Positions 1-12,520 of a stretch of 55,087 nucleotides of DNA are shown here, in pieces. Location of the stretch: positions 1 to 55,087 of the forward strand of contig CANRCK010000009.1 of the NCBI GenBank assembly GCA_947629095.1. Reading direction: 5' to 3'. This DNA is from an uncultured Clostridia bacterium (GTDB taxonomy: Bacteria > Bacillota > Clostridia > Christensenellales > Borkfalkiaceae). The notes under the pieces were generated by a model that did no database searches, was not told where the DNA came from, and saw nothing but the letters and a program-made list of their open reading frames with translations. The translations under genes were made by a program, and so were the position numbers. Each line of letters starts with the position of its first letter. The first letter of the stretch is position 1.

Positions 1-357
1 TATTAAAACGCAACTTTGCACCTTTTCTTTATGTTGGGGGTGAGCCGGCTTTTCGCTTTGCGCTACTTCGCACTAATACTTTACACTGTTATGCTGTTTT
101 AGCTGCACAATAGATTTTCCTATTGACGCAGTTCTTATATTAAATTGTACCCGCACTTTTTTGGTGCGTGCAAGTATTATATAACGCAAAATGGATATTG
201 TCAAACATATGTTTATACATTTTATGAAAAATTTTTTACTTTTCCACATAAATGTGCGGGGATATGGCGTAAGGCATAAGCGAAAGCCGCACCGCCAACG
301 GAAGAAAAGATTATAAGCGGGATTAAAATTATTATTTGAACGAGCCGCCGCGCATGA

Positions 358-400
358 GGAAGGGCGATTCGCCAAGCGGGTTAGCGGCGAACGCCCTTCC
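358..400. repeat. Inverted repeat (hairpin)
   Basis: GGAAGGGCG then TTCGCC at 358-373 pairs with GGCGAA then CGCCCTTCC at 386-400; one A at 367 bulges out. No U-tract follows on either strand, so terminator function is unproven. Confidence 0.6.
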
Positions 401-443
401 CGCACAGCGTACAAATTATATTTTTGACCGATTTGTTTTCTTT

Positions 444-504
444 TGGGCGTGAGCTTGTCCGCGCGGCGTTAGCCGCGCGCTTGTCAAGACAAGCTCACGC
501 CTAA
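444..504. repeat. Nested double inverted repeat at the edge of the AT-rich island
   Basis: The outer arms GGCGTGAGCTTGTC (446-459) and GACAAGCTCACGCC (488-501) pair perfectly and can be extended by a G-T pair. The inner arms CGCGCGGC (460-467) and GCCGCGCG (472-479) close a GTTA tetraloop. A further CTTGTC at 480-485 could also pair with GACAAG at 488-493. This cruciform-capable element sits where composition turns AT-rich, ahead of the CHC2 gene promoter. Confidence 0.65.
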
Positions 505-548
505 ATGCCATTTTGTAAATTTAGAGCACGAGTTAATATAGTTTTCTA

Positions 549-577
549 TTGCTAAATAATGGTAATTATGATATAAT
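549..577 (+). promoter_or_regulatory. Promoter of the CHC2-helicase pair
   Basis: TTGCTA at 549-554, a 17-base spacer and TATAAT at 572-577. The ATG follows only 11 bases after the -10 box, so the transcript would begin about five bases before the start codon, nearly leaderless. No Shine-Dalgarno sequence is present. Confidence 0.7.
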
Positions 578-588
578 ACGGATAATTT

Positions 589-1248
589 ATGAACAACAAA
601 AAGAAATACAATGCAGAAAAAGTTAAATATTTAAAAAATAAAATTGATATTGTTCAAGTAGTGTCAAAAGATATTCAATTAGTAAAGCGGGGCAACAATT
701 TTTTTGGGAGTTGTCCATTTTGTAATGGGACTCACTCGTTAAGTATAAATAAACTCAAACAATATGGGCATTGTTTTTCCTGCGGTGAAAGTTTTGATGT
801 AATCGGTTATTTTCAGAAAGTTAAAGGTTTATCTTTTGTGCAAGCTATTTCACAGCTCATTATTGAAATCAATTCTGCCGATAATAAAGCATTTTCCAAG
901 TTGAATCGAGCATTTAGCCGTTTATCTGATATTGTTAATGATGAGAATAGCGATATTCTTAATAAATTAAGAGCTATTGATAATCAAGCCGAAAAAATAA
1001 TTACTGATTTTATGCTTATTATAGCGGATTTACTTGTTGATTTTGATAAAATGGAATTAGATAAAACAATAGATAGGTCAACTTGGGATATATATTATAA
1101 TTTGTTTGACTCTATGTATTGCAGTATTGAGTGTACAAGTCAAAACGCAATAAAATTAAGTAACCTTTTTAAATATTTGGTTTCTCTTTGCGATATTATT
1201 AAAAACAACGACTACAATTTGGGTGGCTTAATATACATTTCCGAATAA
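589..1248 (+). CDS. Stand-alone CHC2 zinc-finger (DnaG-type) protein
   Basis: This 219-residue protein begins with a DnaG-like CHC2 zinc-binding domain (about residues 15-95). It has C42-P-F-C45 and C62-F-S-C65, followed by the DnaG-like segment in which residues 68-90 read as 'FDVIGYFQKVKGLSFVQAI' and on. Primases usually have CHC2 with one His; here all four ligands are Cys. The TOPRIM catalytic domain of DnaG is absent. The remaining 120 residues are AT-rich, helical and unrecognised. It cannot be a complete primase, and a nucleic-acid-binding accessory role is my inference. It lies 10 bases upstream of the helicase gene with the same AT-rich codon use, so the two are probably co-transcribed. 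The start is near-leaderless. Confidence 0.8.
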   Translation: MNNKKKYNAEKVKYLKNKIDIVQVVSKDIQLVKRGNNFFGSCPFCNGTHSLSINKLKQYGHCFSCGESFDVIGYFQKVKGLSFVQAISQLIIEINSADNKAFSKLNRAFSRLSDIVNDENSDILNKLRAIDNQAEKIITDFMLIIADLLVDFDKMELDKTIDRSTWDIYYNLFDSMYCSIECTSQNAIKLSNLFKYLVSLCDIIKNNDYNLGGLIYISE

Positions 1249-1258
1249 CGAGACAATT

Positions 1259-4200
1259 ATGGGTATATTTGATATTTTCAAAAGACAGAGCAAAAATAAA
1301 AATTTTCCCGAAGAGTATAAAAGTGCTTTAAACTTTAATGAAAAGTTTGAGACCTTAATGTCTGCGGACAAATTTATTGCCCGTAGTGATTATAGGCATT
1401 TAATTGAGCAGTACAATTTTACTTATACTTTTTTTGAGAGTATGCAACGGGGAAATCTTCTTTCGGTTTATTGTAAACAAAATAAACTTCAAGAAAATGA
1501 ATTAAAAAAGTTTATCGGCTGTTATTCTGATATTATTGATTTGGCTAAAGGGTCGGAAATATTTAACGCCCATAACAACTCCTATATTCTATCCCACCTT
1601 GATAGTGAAAAATCCTATTTAGATAAAATCTTATACGAAGTTGACCCCAATATAAACCTTGATGAAGAACAGCGCAGGGTAATTTTATCTGACGAAGATT
1701 ACACTTTGATAATCGCCGGCGCAGGCGCAGGTAAAACAACAACCGTTGCGGCAAAAGTAAGATATTTGGTTGAAAAGAAACACATTGACCCTAAACAAAT
1801 TCTTGTTATATCTTTCACCAATAAAGCGGTTGGTGAGTTAAAAGAAAGAATAAATACAGGGCTTTTAATTCCTTGCCCGATTACGACCTTTCATAGTACG
1901 GGATACGCAATTTTGCGCCAACAGGAAGATAATAAAAAGAAAATTGTCGGTGATGGTTTTCTTTTTAATAGTGTAAATAACTATTTAAAAGGCAATATCC
2001 TTACTCAACCCGAATTAGTTGATAAACTTATTATGTTCTTCGGCTCTTATTTCGACGCTCCATACGAGGGCGATGATATTAACCTGTTTTTTAACTATAT
2101 CGCCAAAGCCGATTTCAGCACCTTAAAAAGTAATGTAAATGAGTACAACGCGCAAATCATTGACAGGCGCACTCACAAAGTTACCACCATTACAAATGAA
2201 ATTTTACGTTCCGCCCAAGAAGTTAAGATTGCAAACTTCCTTTACTTAAATCAAATCGATTACAACTATGAGGAAATATATCCTTATCACATTTTAAAAG
2301 CCAAAAAGCCCTATACCCCCGATTTTTGTATCAGACAGGGGAACAAAGTTGCCTATATTGAGCATTTCGGTATAACCGAAAATGGTAGGCATAGTTTTTA
2401 TACCGCCGAAGAACTCAATAGATATAAGCAGGAAATTCAAGATAAAATTGCCTTGCATAAAAAGCACGGCAGTACCTTGATTTATACATACTCTCAATAC
2501 AATGACGGACGTGATTTTTTAGAGCATTTAAAAGAACAGCTTGAAGAAAATGGTTTTGTATTGAATAGCCGTCCGTCGGAAGAAGTATTTACAAAGCTCG
2601 TCAACACCGAAGAGAATAAATACATATTAAAGCTGGTAAAACTCATCTGCACCTTTATAAATAATTTCAAAACAAACGGATATACGCTTGATGATTTCTA
2701 TCGTTTTGAAAGAACCAACGCAAATGTCCGCACAAAATTATTTTTTGATGTTTGCAAGGCGTGTTATTTAGAGTACCAAAAAAGATTATCGGAAGAAAAT
2801 GCTATCGATTTCCAAGATATGATTAACGATTCCGCAAGAATTTTGCGTGAAAAACAAAACGCCAACGAGAAACTTGATTATAAGTACATAATAGTTGACG
2901 AATATCAAGACATTTCAAGACAGCGTTTTGATTTAACAAAAGAATTATCAAAAATTTGTAATGCTAAAATTATAGCTGTGGGAGATGATTGGCAGTCTAT
3001 ATATGCGTTTAGCGGCTCGGATATTTCCTTGTTTACGCATTTCTGCTCTATTATGGGTTATGGGCAAGAACTGAAAATTACAAAGACTTACCGTAACGCA
3101 CAGGAAGTTATAGATATTGCAGGAAATTTTGTTCAGAAGAACGAAACGCAAATTAAAAAATCTCTTATTTCCCCCAAACATATTCAAAAGCCCGTCATTA
3201 TCCAAACTTACAGTGAAGATTATGACAAAAAAGAATTTAAGGGCAAAGGTGGTAAATATTTTCAACTTGGCAAGCAGGTTGAAGAACTTATCGGAAAAAT
3301 TTTAGAACAGAATAAGCGAGAGGGTAAAAGTTTAAACTCATCAATTTTGTTGATTGGGCGATTTAACTTTGATGCCCGCAACTTATGCTTTTCAAATGAT
3401 TTCGTTTATGACGAAAACAACGGTAAAATTTTCAGCAAGAAATATCCGAAAGCAAAATTGGAATTTTTGACGGCTCATAGCTCAAAGGGTTTGGGTTATG
3501 ATAATGTAATCATTGTAAATGCGAGAAATGAGCTTTACGGCTTCCCCGCAAAAGTCGATGATGACCCCGTGATGAAGTATGTTATTAAAGACGATACTTC
3601 AATAGAGTATGCGGAAGAAAGACGGCTGTTTTATGTGGCTATGACACGAACTAAAAACAGAGTGTTTATTGTAACACCCGAAAACCACCCGTCGGAATTT
3701 ATTTTGGAATTGGTAAAAGATTATCCCAATATTACCGTGCATGGAGAACTCAATAAAGAAAATGAAACAAATATCGGCACCATAAAAAAATGTCCTATCT
3801 GTGGCTATCCTTTACAATTAAGATATAAAAAAGATTATGGCTTCCGTTTATGGTTGTGTACAAACGAGCCAGAGATTTGCAGTTTTATGACCAACGAAAT
3901 AGGGGGCGGTGATTTTTCTATCCAAAAATGCGACAGTTGTCAAGACGGTTATCTTGTCGTCAAAAAGGCAAAAACAGGAGACAATTATATTTTGGGCTGT
4001 ACAAATTATAAAGCCGACGGAACGGGTTGCGATAGGCGTATGAGCCGAGATTATTACAAGCGTTGGCTTACCACGGGATTTGAAGATGATTTATCAGCCG
4101 ATAAACCACTTTATCAAAAAGAAATTCCTACGCAAATGCCGCAGATAAAATCGACCGATGAAAAGCCTGCCGCTTCGGAGCGCAAAAAAGCCGAAGTGCA

Positions 4201-4495
4201 TAAAACAACGCTTATCGGTAAAGATAATTTTAATGTTGTCGCAGATGATGAGGGCAATATTATTACCGATATGGAGCTTTTAACGGCTCTGCGTGCTCTG
4301 CGTTTTGATATCGCCAAAGAAAAAGAAATCGCGCCTTATAAGGTAATTAATAATCAAAAATTGGTAAGCCTTGCAACCTATCGCCCCGAAACGAGAGAAG
4401 AATTTATTTCACTCTACGGGTTTAGCGAAACTACATATAATGAGTATGGTTTAAGATTTTTAGAGGCAATAAAAAAGTTTTATTCCAAAAAATAA
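1259..4495 (+). CDS. UvrD/Rep-family helicase with nuclease-like insert, zinc ribbons and HRDC-like tail
   Basis: This 1078-residue SF1 helicase has Walker A GAGAGKTT near 153-161, DEYQD at 547-551, GDDWQSIYAFSGS near 575-587, TAHSSKGLG near 738-745 and YVAMTRTKN near 792-800. Inside the first helicase half, residues 320-420 resemble a PD-(D/E)XK fold: P354-D355, then E368 in 'IEHFG', as in helicase IV-like proteins; the usual E-x-K lysine is not evident. Two four-Cys topoisomerase-type zinc ribbons follow (C845, C848, C867, C874 and C891, C894, C914, C924), then an HRDC-like domain (about 1000-1075). It should be an ATP-driven 3'-5' DNA translocase; cleavage activity is inferred. It is far more AT-rich than most of the window and lies beside a tRNA gene, which suggests transfer. 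It has no strong ribosome site. Confidence 0.9.
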   Translation: MGIFDIFKRQSKNKNFPEEYKSALNFNEKFETLMSADKFIARSDYRHLIEQYNFTYTFFESMQRGNLLSVYCKQNKLQENELKKFIGCYSDIIDLAKGSEIFNAHNNSYILSHLDSEKSYLDKILYEVDPNINLDEEQRRVILSDEDYTLIIAGAGAGKTTTVAAKVRYLVEKKHIDPKQILVISFTNKAVGELKERINTGLLIPCPITTFHSTGYAILRQQEDNKKKIVGDGFLFNSVNNYLKGNILTQPELVDKLIMFFGSYFDAPYEGDDINLFFNYIAKADFSTLKSNVNEYNAQIIDRRTHKVTTITNEILRSAQEVKIANFLYLNQIDYNYEEIYPYHILKAKKPYTPDFCIRQGNKVAYIEHFGITENGRHSFYTAEELNRYKQEIQDKIALHKKHGSTLIYTYSQYNDGRDFLEHLKEQLEENGFVLNSRPSEEVFTKLVNTEENKYILKLVKLICTFINNFKTNGYTLDDFYRFERTNANVRTKLFFDVCKACYLEYQKRLSEENAIDFQDMINDSARILREKQNANEKLDYKYIIVDEYQDISRQRFDLTKELSKICNAKIIAVGDDWQSIYAFSGSDISLFTHFCSIMGYGQELKITKTYRNAQEVIDIAGNFVQKNETQIKKSLISPKHIQKPVIIQTYSEDYDKKEFKGKGGKYFQLGKQVEELIGKILEQNKREGKSLNSSILLIGRFNFDARNLCFSNDFVYDENNGKIFSKKYPKAKLEFLTAHSSKGLGYDNVIIVNARNELYGFPAKVDDDPVMKYVIKDDTSIEYAEERRLFYVAMTRTKNRVFIVTPENHPSEFILELVKDYPNITVHGELNKENETNIGTIKKCPICGYPLQLRYKKDYGFRLWLCTNEPEICSFMTNEIGGGDFSIQKCDSCQDGYLVVKKAKTGDNYILGCTNYKADGTGCDRRMSRDYYKRWLTTGFEDDLSADKPLYQKEIPTQMPQIKSTDEKPAASERKKAEVHKTTLIGKDNFNVVADDEGNIITDMELLTALRALRFDIAKEKEIAPYKVINNQKLVSLATYRPETREEFISLYGFSETTYNEYGLRFLEAIKKFYSKK

Positions 4496-4500
4496 AAGTT

Positions 4501-4534
4501 ACCCTATGGCTGTCGCAGTCATAGGGTATTTTCT
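4501..4534 (+). terminator. Terminator after the helicase gene
   Basis: ACCCTATGGCTG and CAGTCATAGGGT form a 12-pair stem (one G-U) at 4501-4527, followed by a T-rich stretch. It starts five bases after the stop codon. Confidence 0.85.
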
Positions 4535-4575
4535 AAAAAATAAGGACGTAAATTGATTGTGTTCAACTTACGTCC
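4535..4575 (-). terminator. Terminator of the tRNA-Ser gene
   Basis: Arms at 4544-4556 and 4563-4575 (GGACGTAAGTTGA read on the minus strand) form a 13-pair stem with one G-U pair. On the minus strand the T-run lies at 4543-4535. It sits directly after the tRNA 3' end. Confidence 0.8.
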
Positions 4576-4579
4576 CCCT

Positions 4580-4671
4580 TGGCGCGGATGGAGGGATTTG
4601 AACCCTCGCTACGATTCACTCGTACTACTCCCTTAGCAGGGGAGCCCCTTGAGCCACTTGGGTACGTCCGC
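4580..4671 (-). tRNA. tRNA-Ser (anticodon GCT)
   Basis: On the minus strand the acceptor begins GCGGACG and pairs with CATCCGC, with one C-A mismatch. The anticodon stem CTCCC/GGGAG encloses loop CTGCTAA, giving anticodon GCT (serine AGC/AGT codons). A long variable arm, as expected for class II tRNAs, precedes the T-arm GAGGG-TTCAAAT-CCCTC. The CCA end is encoded. Ser tRNA genes are common integration sites, and the AT-rich helicase island lies against its 3' side, although I find no duplicated 3' end. Confidence 0.95.
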
Positions 4672-4684
4672 TCAATGCTCAATC

Positions 4685-4713
4685 AATATATCACAATTTT
4701 GCGGGTTTGTCAA
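4685..4713 (-). promoter_or_regulatory. Promoter of tRNA-Ser
   Basis: On the minus strand TTGACA (4713-4708), a 17-base spacer and TATATT (4690-4685), ending 13 bases before the tRNA 5' end. Confidence 0.8.
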
Positions 4714-4798
4714 AGCATTATTCGGAGTTTTAAAAAATTAATATTTTTATTTTCAGTCCCGCAAACGCCCTGTTCCCACCCGCCGTTAAACGGCAATA

Positions 4799-5911
4799 TT
4801 ACTTGCCGATATATATAAGGGGAACTTCCATTTCCGCGGTTAAGGACGTGTGGTGACCATTGAAGCTGTGACCGAGCGGAGTGAGCTGCATTATTTTATC
4901 GGTGGTTCCAACGGCGATATAGTCGCCCAAAAGATCTGCGTGGACATTGGGAACGCCAACGCCGAAATAGTTGCTTTCAATCAACTCCCGCGAAGTGAAA
5001 AGCGCAAAATCGTCGCCGTATTTTTGGGTGAAAAGCTTTGAAAAACGATTGCCGCAGCCCGGTTTGACCTTGAAGGCAGGCGCGCGCGCCTCGAGATAGG
5101 GCGGCCACTCCAGAAGGGAAAGAAGCTCGGCGTCCTTATATAATTCAATACACCCGCCGATATCTATCTGACCGTGGTCGGCGGTGACGATGAAAAGGGT
5201 GTTTTCAAGCCCGGCAAACAAACTTTCAACGCCGGCGTTAAGAGCGGTTATTACAGAGCGCGCCTCTGCCGAAGAAACGCCGTGGCGGTGCATTGTGGAA
5301 TCCGGCTCGGTGTAGTACGCGTATACGAACTGTCTGCCCTCCCCCGAACATGCCGTTTTGATATTTTTGAGCAATCCCTCGAAAGAATCCCATATATATT
5401 TGTGTTTATCGTCGCTGCGCCAGAATGAAGGGATTACGCAGTTTACCGTTATTCGGTCGGTTGCGCACTTGTAGAAGGGTACAACGGGGAGAGCCTTGTA
5501 GGCATAGCCGTCCTCCACCCGTTCGCCCGTAAAAGAGTCGGTATCGCGGAAGATATCAACCGCCCTGCCAAGCTCCTTAAAATAGAGACTCCAACCGAAC
5601 CAACCGTGCTCCATGGGATACTCGTTTGTGAGAAGGGACGTGGTTGCGTTGGTTGTGGTGGACGGAAACACAGAGGTTAAAGTTTGCCGTACGTTTTTCC
5701 TTAAAAAACTTTCCGCGGGGAGATTTGTTTCCAACGGATGGGTGCCAAGCCCGTCGAGAATAAGAAAGACTACGTTTTTATAGTCCTTTTTCAGCTCGAC
5801 GCTAAGCCCTTCCAAAACGGGTTTGTTGTTGGGGCAACCGAGATATTCGGCAAGGGTTGCGGAGATATTTACGATATTGCGCGTGAAGTCGGGCTTTATG
5901 AGCTTAGTCAC
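4799..5911 (-). CDS. Type I phosphodiesterase / nucleotide pyrophosphatase family protein
   Basis: This 370-residue protein belongs to the alkaline-phosphatase superfamily of metal-dependent phosphodiesterases. Seen: the metal-binding 'LILDGLG' with D53, the nucleophile region 'FPSTTTNATTSLLT' around T86-T87, a 'TADHGQ' metal site near 245 and a final 'GHHTSL' histidine region near 355. There is no signal peptide or membrane segment, so it is probably cytoplasmic; the substrate is unknown. The start is GTG, chosen because GGGAGG lies seven bases upstream. It stands alone, with its own promoter at 5937-5965 and oppositely oriented or RNA genes downstream. Its short length fits the bacterial family rather than the longer eukaryotic enzymes. 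Confidence 0.85.
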   Translation of the reverse strand: MTKLIKPDFTRNIVNISATLAEYLGCPNNKPVLEGLSVELKKDYKNVVFLILDGLGTHPLETNLPAESFLRKNVRQTLTSVFPSTTTNATTSLLTNEYPMEHGWFGWSLYFKELGRAVDIFRDTDSFTGERVEDGYAYKALPVVPFYKCATDRITVNCVIPSFWRSDDKHKYIWDSFEGLLKNIKTACSGEGRQFVYAYYTEPDSTMHRHGVSSAEARSVITALNAGVESLFAGLENTLFIVTADHGQIDIGGCIELYKDAELLSLLEWPPYLEARAPAFKVKPGCGNRFSKLFTQKYGDDFALFTSRELIESNYFGVGVPNVHADLLGDYIAVGTTDKIMQLTPLGHSFNGHHTSLTAEMEVPLIYIGK

Positions 5912-12323: not shown

Positions 12324-12520
12324 GGGGGCAAATCAGAGGAGCGGACGGGCATAAGTACCCGCGGACAGGAGTTTTTGAGAGGAAATTCCGCTTTGAATCC
12401 GCGGCAAAAGGGCGCCTCCGCCGAGATTCGGCTGCTCTCCGCCGCGTCGGGCGCACGGGTCAATACCCTTGCGACTGTCACTTTTTGTGTTGCGCTATTT
12501 GCCTTGGTCGGTTTTTTTGG
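12324..12520 (+). promoter_or_regulatory. Lysine riboswitch (L box)
   Basis: The leader carries the conserved lysine-riboswitch blocks in order: AGAGGAGCG near 12335, ATAAGTACC near 12351, AAAAGGGCGCCTCCGCCGA near 12405-12424, and ACGGGTCAATACCC with GACTGTCA ending at 12480. The order and bases match the Bacillus lysC aptamer layout. Downstream, GGCAAAT at 12327-12333 can pair with ATTTGCC at 12497-12503, and GGTCGG plus seven Ts (to about 12518) could serve a terminator stem that competes with the aptamer base. Lysine binding should reduce asd-dapA-dapB expression, a classic feedback loop, because these enzymes lead to lysine. Confidence 0.85.

Follow-up and report, generated by a model that had tools for sequence, protein, structure and literature searches.

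Near the left-hand end of a 55,087-nucleotide contig from an uncultured Clostridia bacterium of the family Borkfalkiaceae (GenBank assembly GCA_947629095.1, contig CANRCK010000009.1; the whole contig is called the window here), two adjacent genes encode an orphan CHC2 zinc-finger protein (ORF1) and a UvrD/helicase-IV-like superfamily 1 (SF1) helicase (ORF2). As judged from sequence, this pair is probably a horizontally acquired candidate anti-phage cassette, located at the hairpin end of an integrative element that carries a recombinase and a G2P-type replication protein (Rep), beside a tRNA-Ser gene. Its foreign base composition, its rarity, the element next to it and the genes found in its company favor a role in defence or in the handling of foreign DNA. 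Coordinates of all features are collected in Table 1.

The composition and layout of the locus agree with an earlier note, made from the letters of the window, which had described an AT-rich pair with its own promoter and terminator at a tRNA-Ser gene. GC content per kb is 0.316-0.363 over positions 1-4000, 0.425 over 4001-5000 and 0.435-0.557 from 5001 onward. Both genes are read from the plus strand with 10 bp between them, and they are framed by a promoter-like site and a terminator-like stem. These signals come from scans by consensus only, which returned 24 promoter-like sites across the window vs 18.2 (sd 3.9) in shuffled sequence and seven terminator-like sites vs 4.3 (sd 1.8). The tRNA-Ser gene lies 84 bp past the end of the pair on the minus strand, so that its 3' end points at the two genes; its own terminator-like stem occupies the space between.

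The window is one complete contig, and its upstream neighborhood lies on contig C1 (304190 bp) of the same genome, whose final 77 bp (C1:304114-304190) match the first 77 bp of the window letter for letter. Encoded at the adjoining end of C1 are a serine recombinase that matches PF00239 and PF07508 and a member of the Rep family named ORF2/G2P (PF23343); this end thus supplies the site-specific recombinase expected of a tRNA-linked integrative element. Together with the start of the window, this region (~C1:301030-304190) forms a ~3.6-kb unit that is kept in five genomes (G820, G014, G864, G229 and G018); the comparison took copies in which a close relative of the Rep gene adjoins the boundary motif described below, G291:C6 and more distant Rep genes being set aside. 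The unit runs unbroken over the contig junction in G820, G014, G864 and G018, which supports the join between C1 and the window, and matches patchily in G229. On the window side, the five alignments stop at positions 510, 510, 512, 514 and 525, just after a hairpin and before the pair, and the neighbors past the hairpin end differ from copy to copy; the pair is therefore ruled out as part of the conserved core of the element. The same hairpin fold recurs in L240 (z -7.5), L243 (z -7.5) and L241 (z -5.9), and reaches z -2.6 in L239, where the slice lacks the left arm. On the recombinase side of the G820 copy, a gene (L239 17756-18382) by eye resembles one for a TIR-like defence protein.

The recombinase-side end of the element abuts the 3' end of a tRNA-Ala in G864 and of a tRNA-Ser in G006; in G820, G014, G229 and G018, where this end has diverged, no tRNA was seen there by eye. 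In the genome studied here, a 22-bp sequence at the 3' end of the tRNA-Ser gene is repeated directly at C1:300829-300850, so that ~7.9 kb holding the recombinase, Rep, CHC2 and helicase genes lies between the two copies. Two observations speak against these repeats being simple attachment sites: the far copy is ~180 bp beyond the end of the unit, and tRNA-3'-like fragments are present at further places in this genome, partial copies of the repeat among them, and in the genus. In the same chromosomal neighborhood of G014, the Uzume gene uzuA stands at the tRNA-Ser gene in place of the pair, and the tRNA-Ser block (L143 8160-8251, corresponding to window 4580-4671) is inverted relative to the neighboring phosphodiesterase-like gene. 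Single-protein queries found no close relatives of the Rep in plasmids or viral contigs.

The unit ends in a 24-bp boundary motif that recurs in the genus. With up to 3 mismatches allowed, it gave 33 matches in 20 of 93 genus genomes, compared with one match for a reversed control pattern. Two matches were left out (G291:C11 and G008:C29) and a reverse match in G804 fell at the same place as L224; the 30 loci viewed, L245 among them, leave 29 when the window's own is subtracted. These places were chosen by the motif, not by defence genes, and at 12 of the 29 a known defence gene comes first on the cargo side. Ten of the calls rest on profiles: an NgoPII restriction enzyme (the same genome as the window), a C5-methylase (G820:C5), an N6/N4-methylase (G820:C1), a type IIG enzyme (G864), AIPR/AbiU (G229), an MvaI/BcnI enzyme (G018), a D12 methylase (G805), a C5-methylase fused to Eco47II (G061) and UzuA (G014 and G804). 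The other two (L222 and L245; G882 and G820:C3) were made by likeness to tested proteins, and the G820:C3 cluster additionally has an AbiH gene. At another site in the window's own genome (C1 ~218263-220201; L246 8264-10202), an AT-rich NgoPII-type enzyme gene and a cytosine-methylase-like gene follow right behind the motif. Judged by eye, the nearest gene upstream of the motif is never a defence gene. Uzume is described as a defence system in two papers (PMC10482375, PMC11811056) and is among the systems of PADLOC; UzuA and the restriction-modification cassettes of the genus have the same boundary motif ahead of them as the CHC2/helicase pair, although their proteins are unrelated to it. The exact 27-base form of the motif was not found in viral contigs. 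A second motif type (for example in G003, G016 and G888) has no defence neighbor; at L210, L229, L215, L231 and L228 it lies beside a conserved protein containing MKMLVTKLS.

The protein encoded by ORF1 is, as the earlier note had claimed, a DnaG-type CHC2 domain without the remainder of a primase. It passes a single profile, PF01807 (77.1 bits, cut-off 24.9), and the DnaG equivalog model reaches 83 of the required 283.6 bits over residues 8-95 only, so that it does not qualify as a DnaG primase. A zinc module (residues ~9-95) is followed by a helical C-terminal domain (~99-206). The metal ligands C42, C62 and C65 are present in 19 of 19 sequences and C45 in 18 of 19, which together with the profile score identifies a CHC2 zinc finger; Cys45 occupies the place of the DnaG histidine. 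With its four cysteines and no polymerase domain, ORF1 differs from the DnaG zinc-binding domain (PDB 1d0q). Among the matches listed for its C-terminal domain, none was to the helicase-binding domain of primases.

ORF2 qualifies as a UvrD-type SF1 helicase by its PF00580 score (164.9 bits, above the cut-off), its Walker-A lysine K159 and its DE motif D547-E548, both motifs being invariant in all 37 aligned relatives. The best-scoring NCBIfam model is DNA helicase IV (HelD, NF008276), at 277.3 bits vs a cut-off of 543, which places ORF2 outside that family; the two share the SF1 core, whereas ORF2 is accessory and has zinc ribbons as well as an HRDC domain at its C terminus. The eight cysteines of the ribbons are likewise kept in 37/37, and the Top1-type zinc ribbon profile scores 35.3 bits on the excised segment (cut-off 32) and 23.2 bits, under the cut-off, on the whole protein. 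Inserted in the helicase is a PD-(D/E)XK-like segment that shares the pattern RSxxE...YTPDF...E with T7 endonuclease I; the alignment is weak (E 0.06-0.15), as is that to Pfam Phage_endo_I (E 0.0012, 18.9 bits, under the 29.1 cut-off), and the residues E321, P354-D355-F356 and E368 are kept in every aligned relative. ORF2 also matches the UvrD-like helicase profile of Gabija GajB (161 bits), from which it differs in having its nuclease-like domain built into the helicase. Inspection by eye of the reading frames in the window and in the terminal 14 kb of C1 showed no GajA-like gene, the PADLOC profiles having been applied in this question to the two window proteins only, and ORF2 was not assigned to Gabija. 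Among other helicase relatives, P0045 and P0102 have tandem HRDC-like ends by eye, and P0072 and P0087 carry a GreA/GreB-type domain in a precomputed Pfam list.

Both genes are sparsely distributed, the CHC2 gene more so than the helicase gene. Counting the window's own genome each time, the orphan CHC2 profile is present in 1 of 396 genomes of the order, 1 of 391 of the class and 2 of 398 of the family (overlapping sets); the earlier note had named a housekeeping pair conserved among relatives as what would overturn its reading, and these counts show no such conservation. A search of 61 close genomes with the CHC2 protein met DnaG-sized genes (frames of at least 325 aa) and found the orphan form in the window's own genome only. 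At the protein level, a profile search recovered 60 proteins of the orphan family among 5.8 billion, mostly in groups of 219 aa and 227 aa. A scan of genome contigs with the single protein found no relative, and in a profile scan the best 80 of 553 relatives were DnaG-like by frame length except L044; two of the loci in that scan (L080 and L116) run past their contig ends. A candidate short CHC2 gene, L107, was rejected, as by eye it looks like a DnaG split over two frames. Viral contigs gave three loci with the CHC2 profile: L041 (807 aa) and L042 (at least 450 aa) have long primase-like frames, and L043 has a 119-aa CHC2 frame amid phage-like genes; the ORF2 helicase was found on none of them. 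The full-length helicase occurs in 2 of the 61 close genomes (its own and G024) and in 12 of 391 genomes of the class at E <= 1e-120, its own included. In a broader search, 3835 of 7999 scored proteins reached E <= 1e-30, a threshold that also lets in distant helicases.

Several relatives of the two proteins are found in defence-like company. In G1083, a member of the same family, a CHC2 gene of the 227-aa type, frame-broken in the assembly, lies between UzuA, which is accompanied by what by eye is a nudix-like remnant, and a RecQ-like helicase. The contig stops within this helicase gene; its visible part matches the DEAD, DpdF and PsyrT models and apparently begins, by eye, with a DEDD exonuclease. 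Taken with the window, this context indicates that one CHC2 family goes with two unlike helicases. Among relatives of the ORF2 helicase, the order in L136 (162-5051) is PtuA and PtuB (Septu profiles), a 239-aa gene of unknown function and the helicase, cut by the contig end. In L183 the helicase adjoins an HNH/type-IV-restriction-enzyme-like gene (profile), in L187 a GmrSD_N gene lies at most ~6 kb away (profile), and in L254 cytosine-methylase genes are seen by eye at ~3 kb.

A wider proposal, which we hold more tentatively and regard as possible, is that the hairpin-ended element brings swappable defence cargo to tRNA genes and elsewhere in the genomes of this genus, the CHC2/helicase-nuclease pair being an undescribed defence system among that cargo, with a cousin that uses a RecQ-like helicase. 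Several observations weigh against the main reading, an anti-phage cassette. At 17 of the 29 places with the motif no defence gene was recognised alongside, including the element copy of G014, beside which lies a phosphatase-like gene; among the 17, L210 and L223 have little sequence past the motif, L226 falls within a gene and probably matches by chance, L230 has a methyltransferase outside the library comparison, and others are sites of the second motif type. The 12 of 29 is, moreover, a raw count, without matched random sites as a baseline. The fold of the ORF1 C-terminal domain found no clear match. In the ORF2 insert, Phe370 replaces the ExK lysine, the catalytic lysine position of T7 endonuclease I, in 37/37 aligned relatives; of the multi-domain helicase described by the earlier note, the SF1 core, HRDC domain and two zinc ribbons hold, and the nuclease-like insert keeps its E/D/E residues but not its lysine. 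No CHC2 gene was found at any of 53 other helicase loci (14 + 39) in the flanks examined, several of which are shortened by contig ends. Longer flanks for 10 of the 14 gave the same result, and the search recovered its positive controls, the CHC2 gene of the window and both pieces of L044. An obligate pair is thus unproven. Adjacency was seen directly in the window only, and one further contig probably carries both genes (P0006 and P0036, both from source 'ncbi' and each with a longest contig of 8573 bp), so that rare neighborhood, the other finding named in advance as damaging, applies in part; that the two proteins act together is plausible from these few loci. The earlier suggestion of a DNA-processing or defence module keeps the support of foreign composition, rarity, a mobile element at a tRNA gene and a motif common to defence cassettes, but is weakened by the rare pairing and the absent nuclease lysine.

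Ordinary-looking genes, as judged by eye, surround some helicase relatives, among them those in G024, G587 and G616, which adds to the points against a defence role. They would suit an accessory DNA-repair or recombination pair, in which a helicase-IV-like enzyme resolves branched DNA with the CHC2 protein as an adaptor for single-stranded DNA. DNA helicase IV is also the top named model for ORF2; patchy distribution and the defence-type neighborhood argue the other way, and we consider this explanation unlikely. Fainter still is the prospect that the pair serves the element itself, the helicase and primase-like zinc protein assisting rolling-circle replication by the G2P-type Rep. Rolling-circle plasmids use UvrD/PcrA-type helicases, and the Rep and recombinase genes lie directly upstream of the pair, but the five other compared copies have no such pair, the conserved unit ends before it, and helicase relatives occur with no Rep gene in view (by eye). 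Least probable is a toxin-antitoxin-like or abortive-infection arrangement, in which the CHC2 protein holds the helicase in check, or imitates the zinc domain of a phage primase, until infection frees a toxic activity: a small gene does precede a large enzyme by 10 bp, and the helicase beside a CHC2 relative matches the PADLOC model for PsyrT, which we take to be the RecQ-like toxin in a system already described, but the other helicase loci viewed stand without CHC2, so that CHC2 is not a required antidote.

If the pair is an anti-phage cassette, its domains suggest a division of labor. The CHC2 protein might read single-stranded DNA like the zinc module of DnaG, without a polymerase domain, and its helical C-terminal part could dock on the helicase, guiding it to single-stranded regions in phage DNA that is entering the cell or being replicated. 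Aided by its zinc ribbons and HRDC domain, the helicase would then unwind or strip these regions, and the embedded nuclease-like domain may cut or hold branched DNA. This would be a case of a primase zinc module reused without its primase and paired with a helicase bearing its own nuclease-like domain. In open-access papers the pair was not found as a described system, in agreement with the earlier note; an operon of Porphyromonas gingivalis that pairs PcrA with a zinc-finger protein (PMC3747172) was not counted as such, because the finger is described as SWIM-type. The boundary motif offers a handle for finding more defence genes in the genus, including lone ones amid ordinary genes.

Table 1. 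Features of the locus in window coordinates.
Feature	Position	Strand	Basis
Assembly overlap with the end of C1, 77 bp	1..77		sequence identity
Right-hand end of the ~3.6-kb recombinase/Rep unit	1..514		blastn vs 5 related copies
Hairpin ending the unit	446..501		DNA fold z -8.8
Boundary motif AAGCTCACGCCTAWMTGCCATTTT	491..514	+	pattern matches in genus genomes
Promoter-like site TTGCTA-17-TATAAT, TG ahead of second hexamer	549..577	+	consensus match only
ORF1, orphan CHC2 zinc-finger protein, 219 aa	589..1248	+	reading-frame list, profiles
ORF2, UvrD/helicase-IV-like SF1 helicase, 1078 aa	1259..4495	+	reading-frame list, profiles
PD-(D/E)XK-like insert of ORF2, residues ~316-411, T7-endonuclease-I-like sequence	2204..2491	+	weak alignment, conserved residues
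Two four-cysteine zinc ribbons of ORF2, residues 845-924	3791..4030	+	profile, conserved cysteines
HRDC domain of ORF2, residues 1005-1071	4271..4471	+	PF00570, 52.7 bits, above cut-off
Terminator-like 13-bp stem of the gene pair	4500..4528	+	consensus scan
Terminator-like stem of the tRNA-Ser gene	4542..4577	-	consensus scan
22-bp direct repeat, tRNA-Ser 3' end	4579..4600		sequence comparison
tRNA-Ser (GCT)	4580..4671	-	tRNA call

Farther along the window, a lysine riboswitch lies on the plus strand at 12326-12505 (Rfam RF00168, 56.6 bits).

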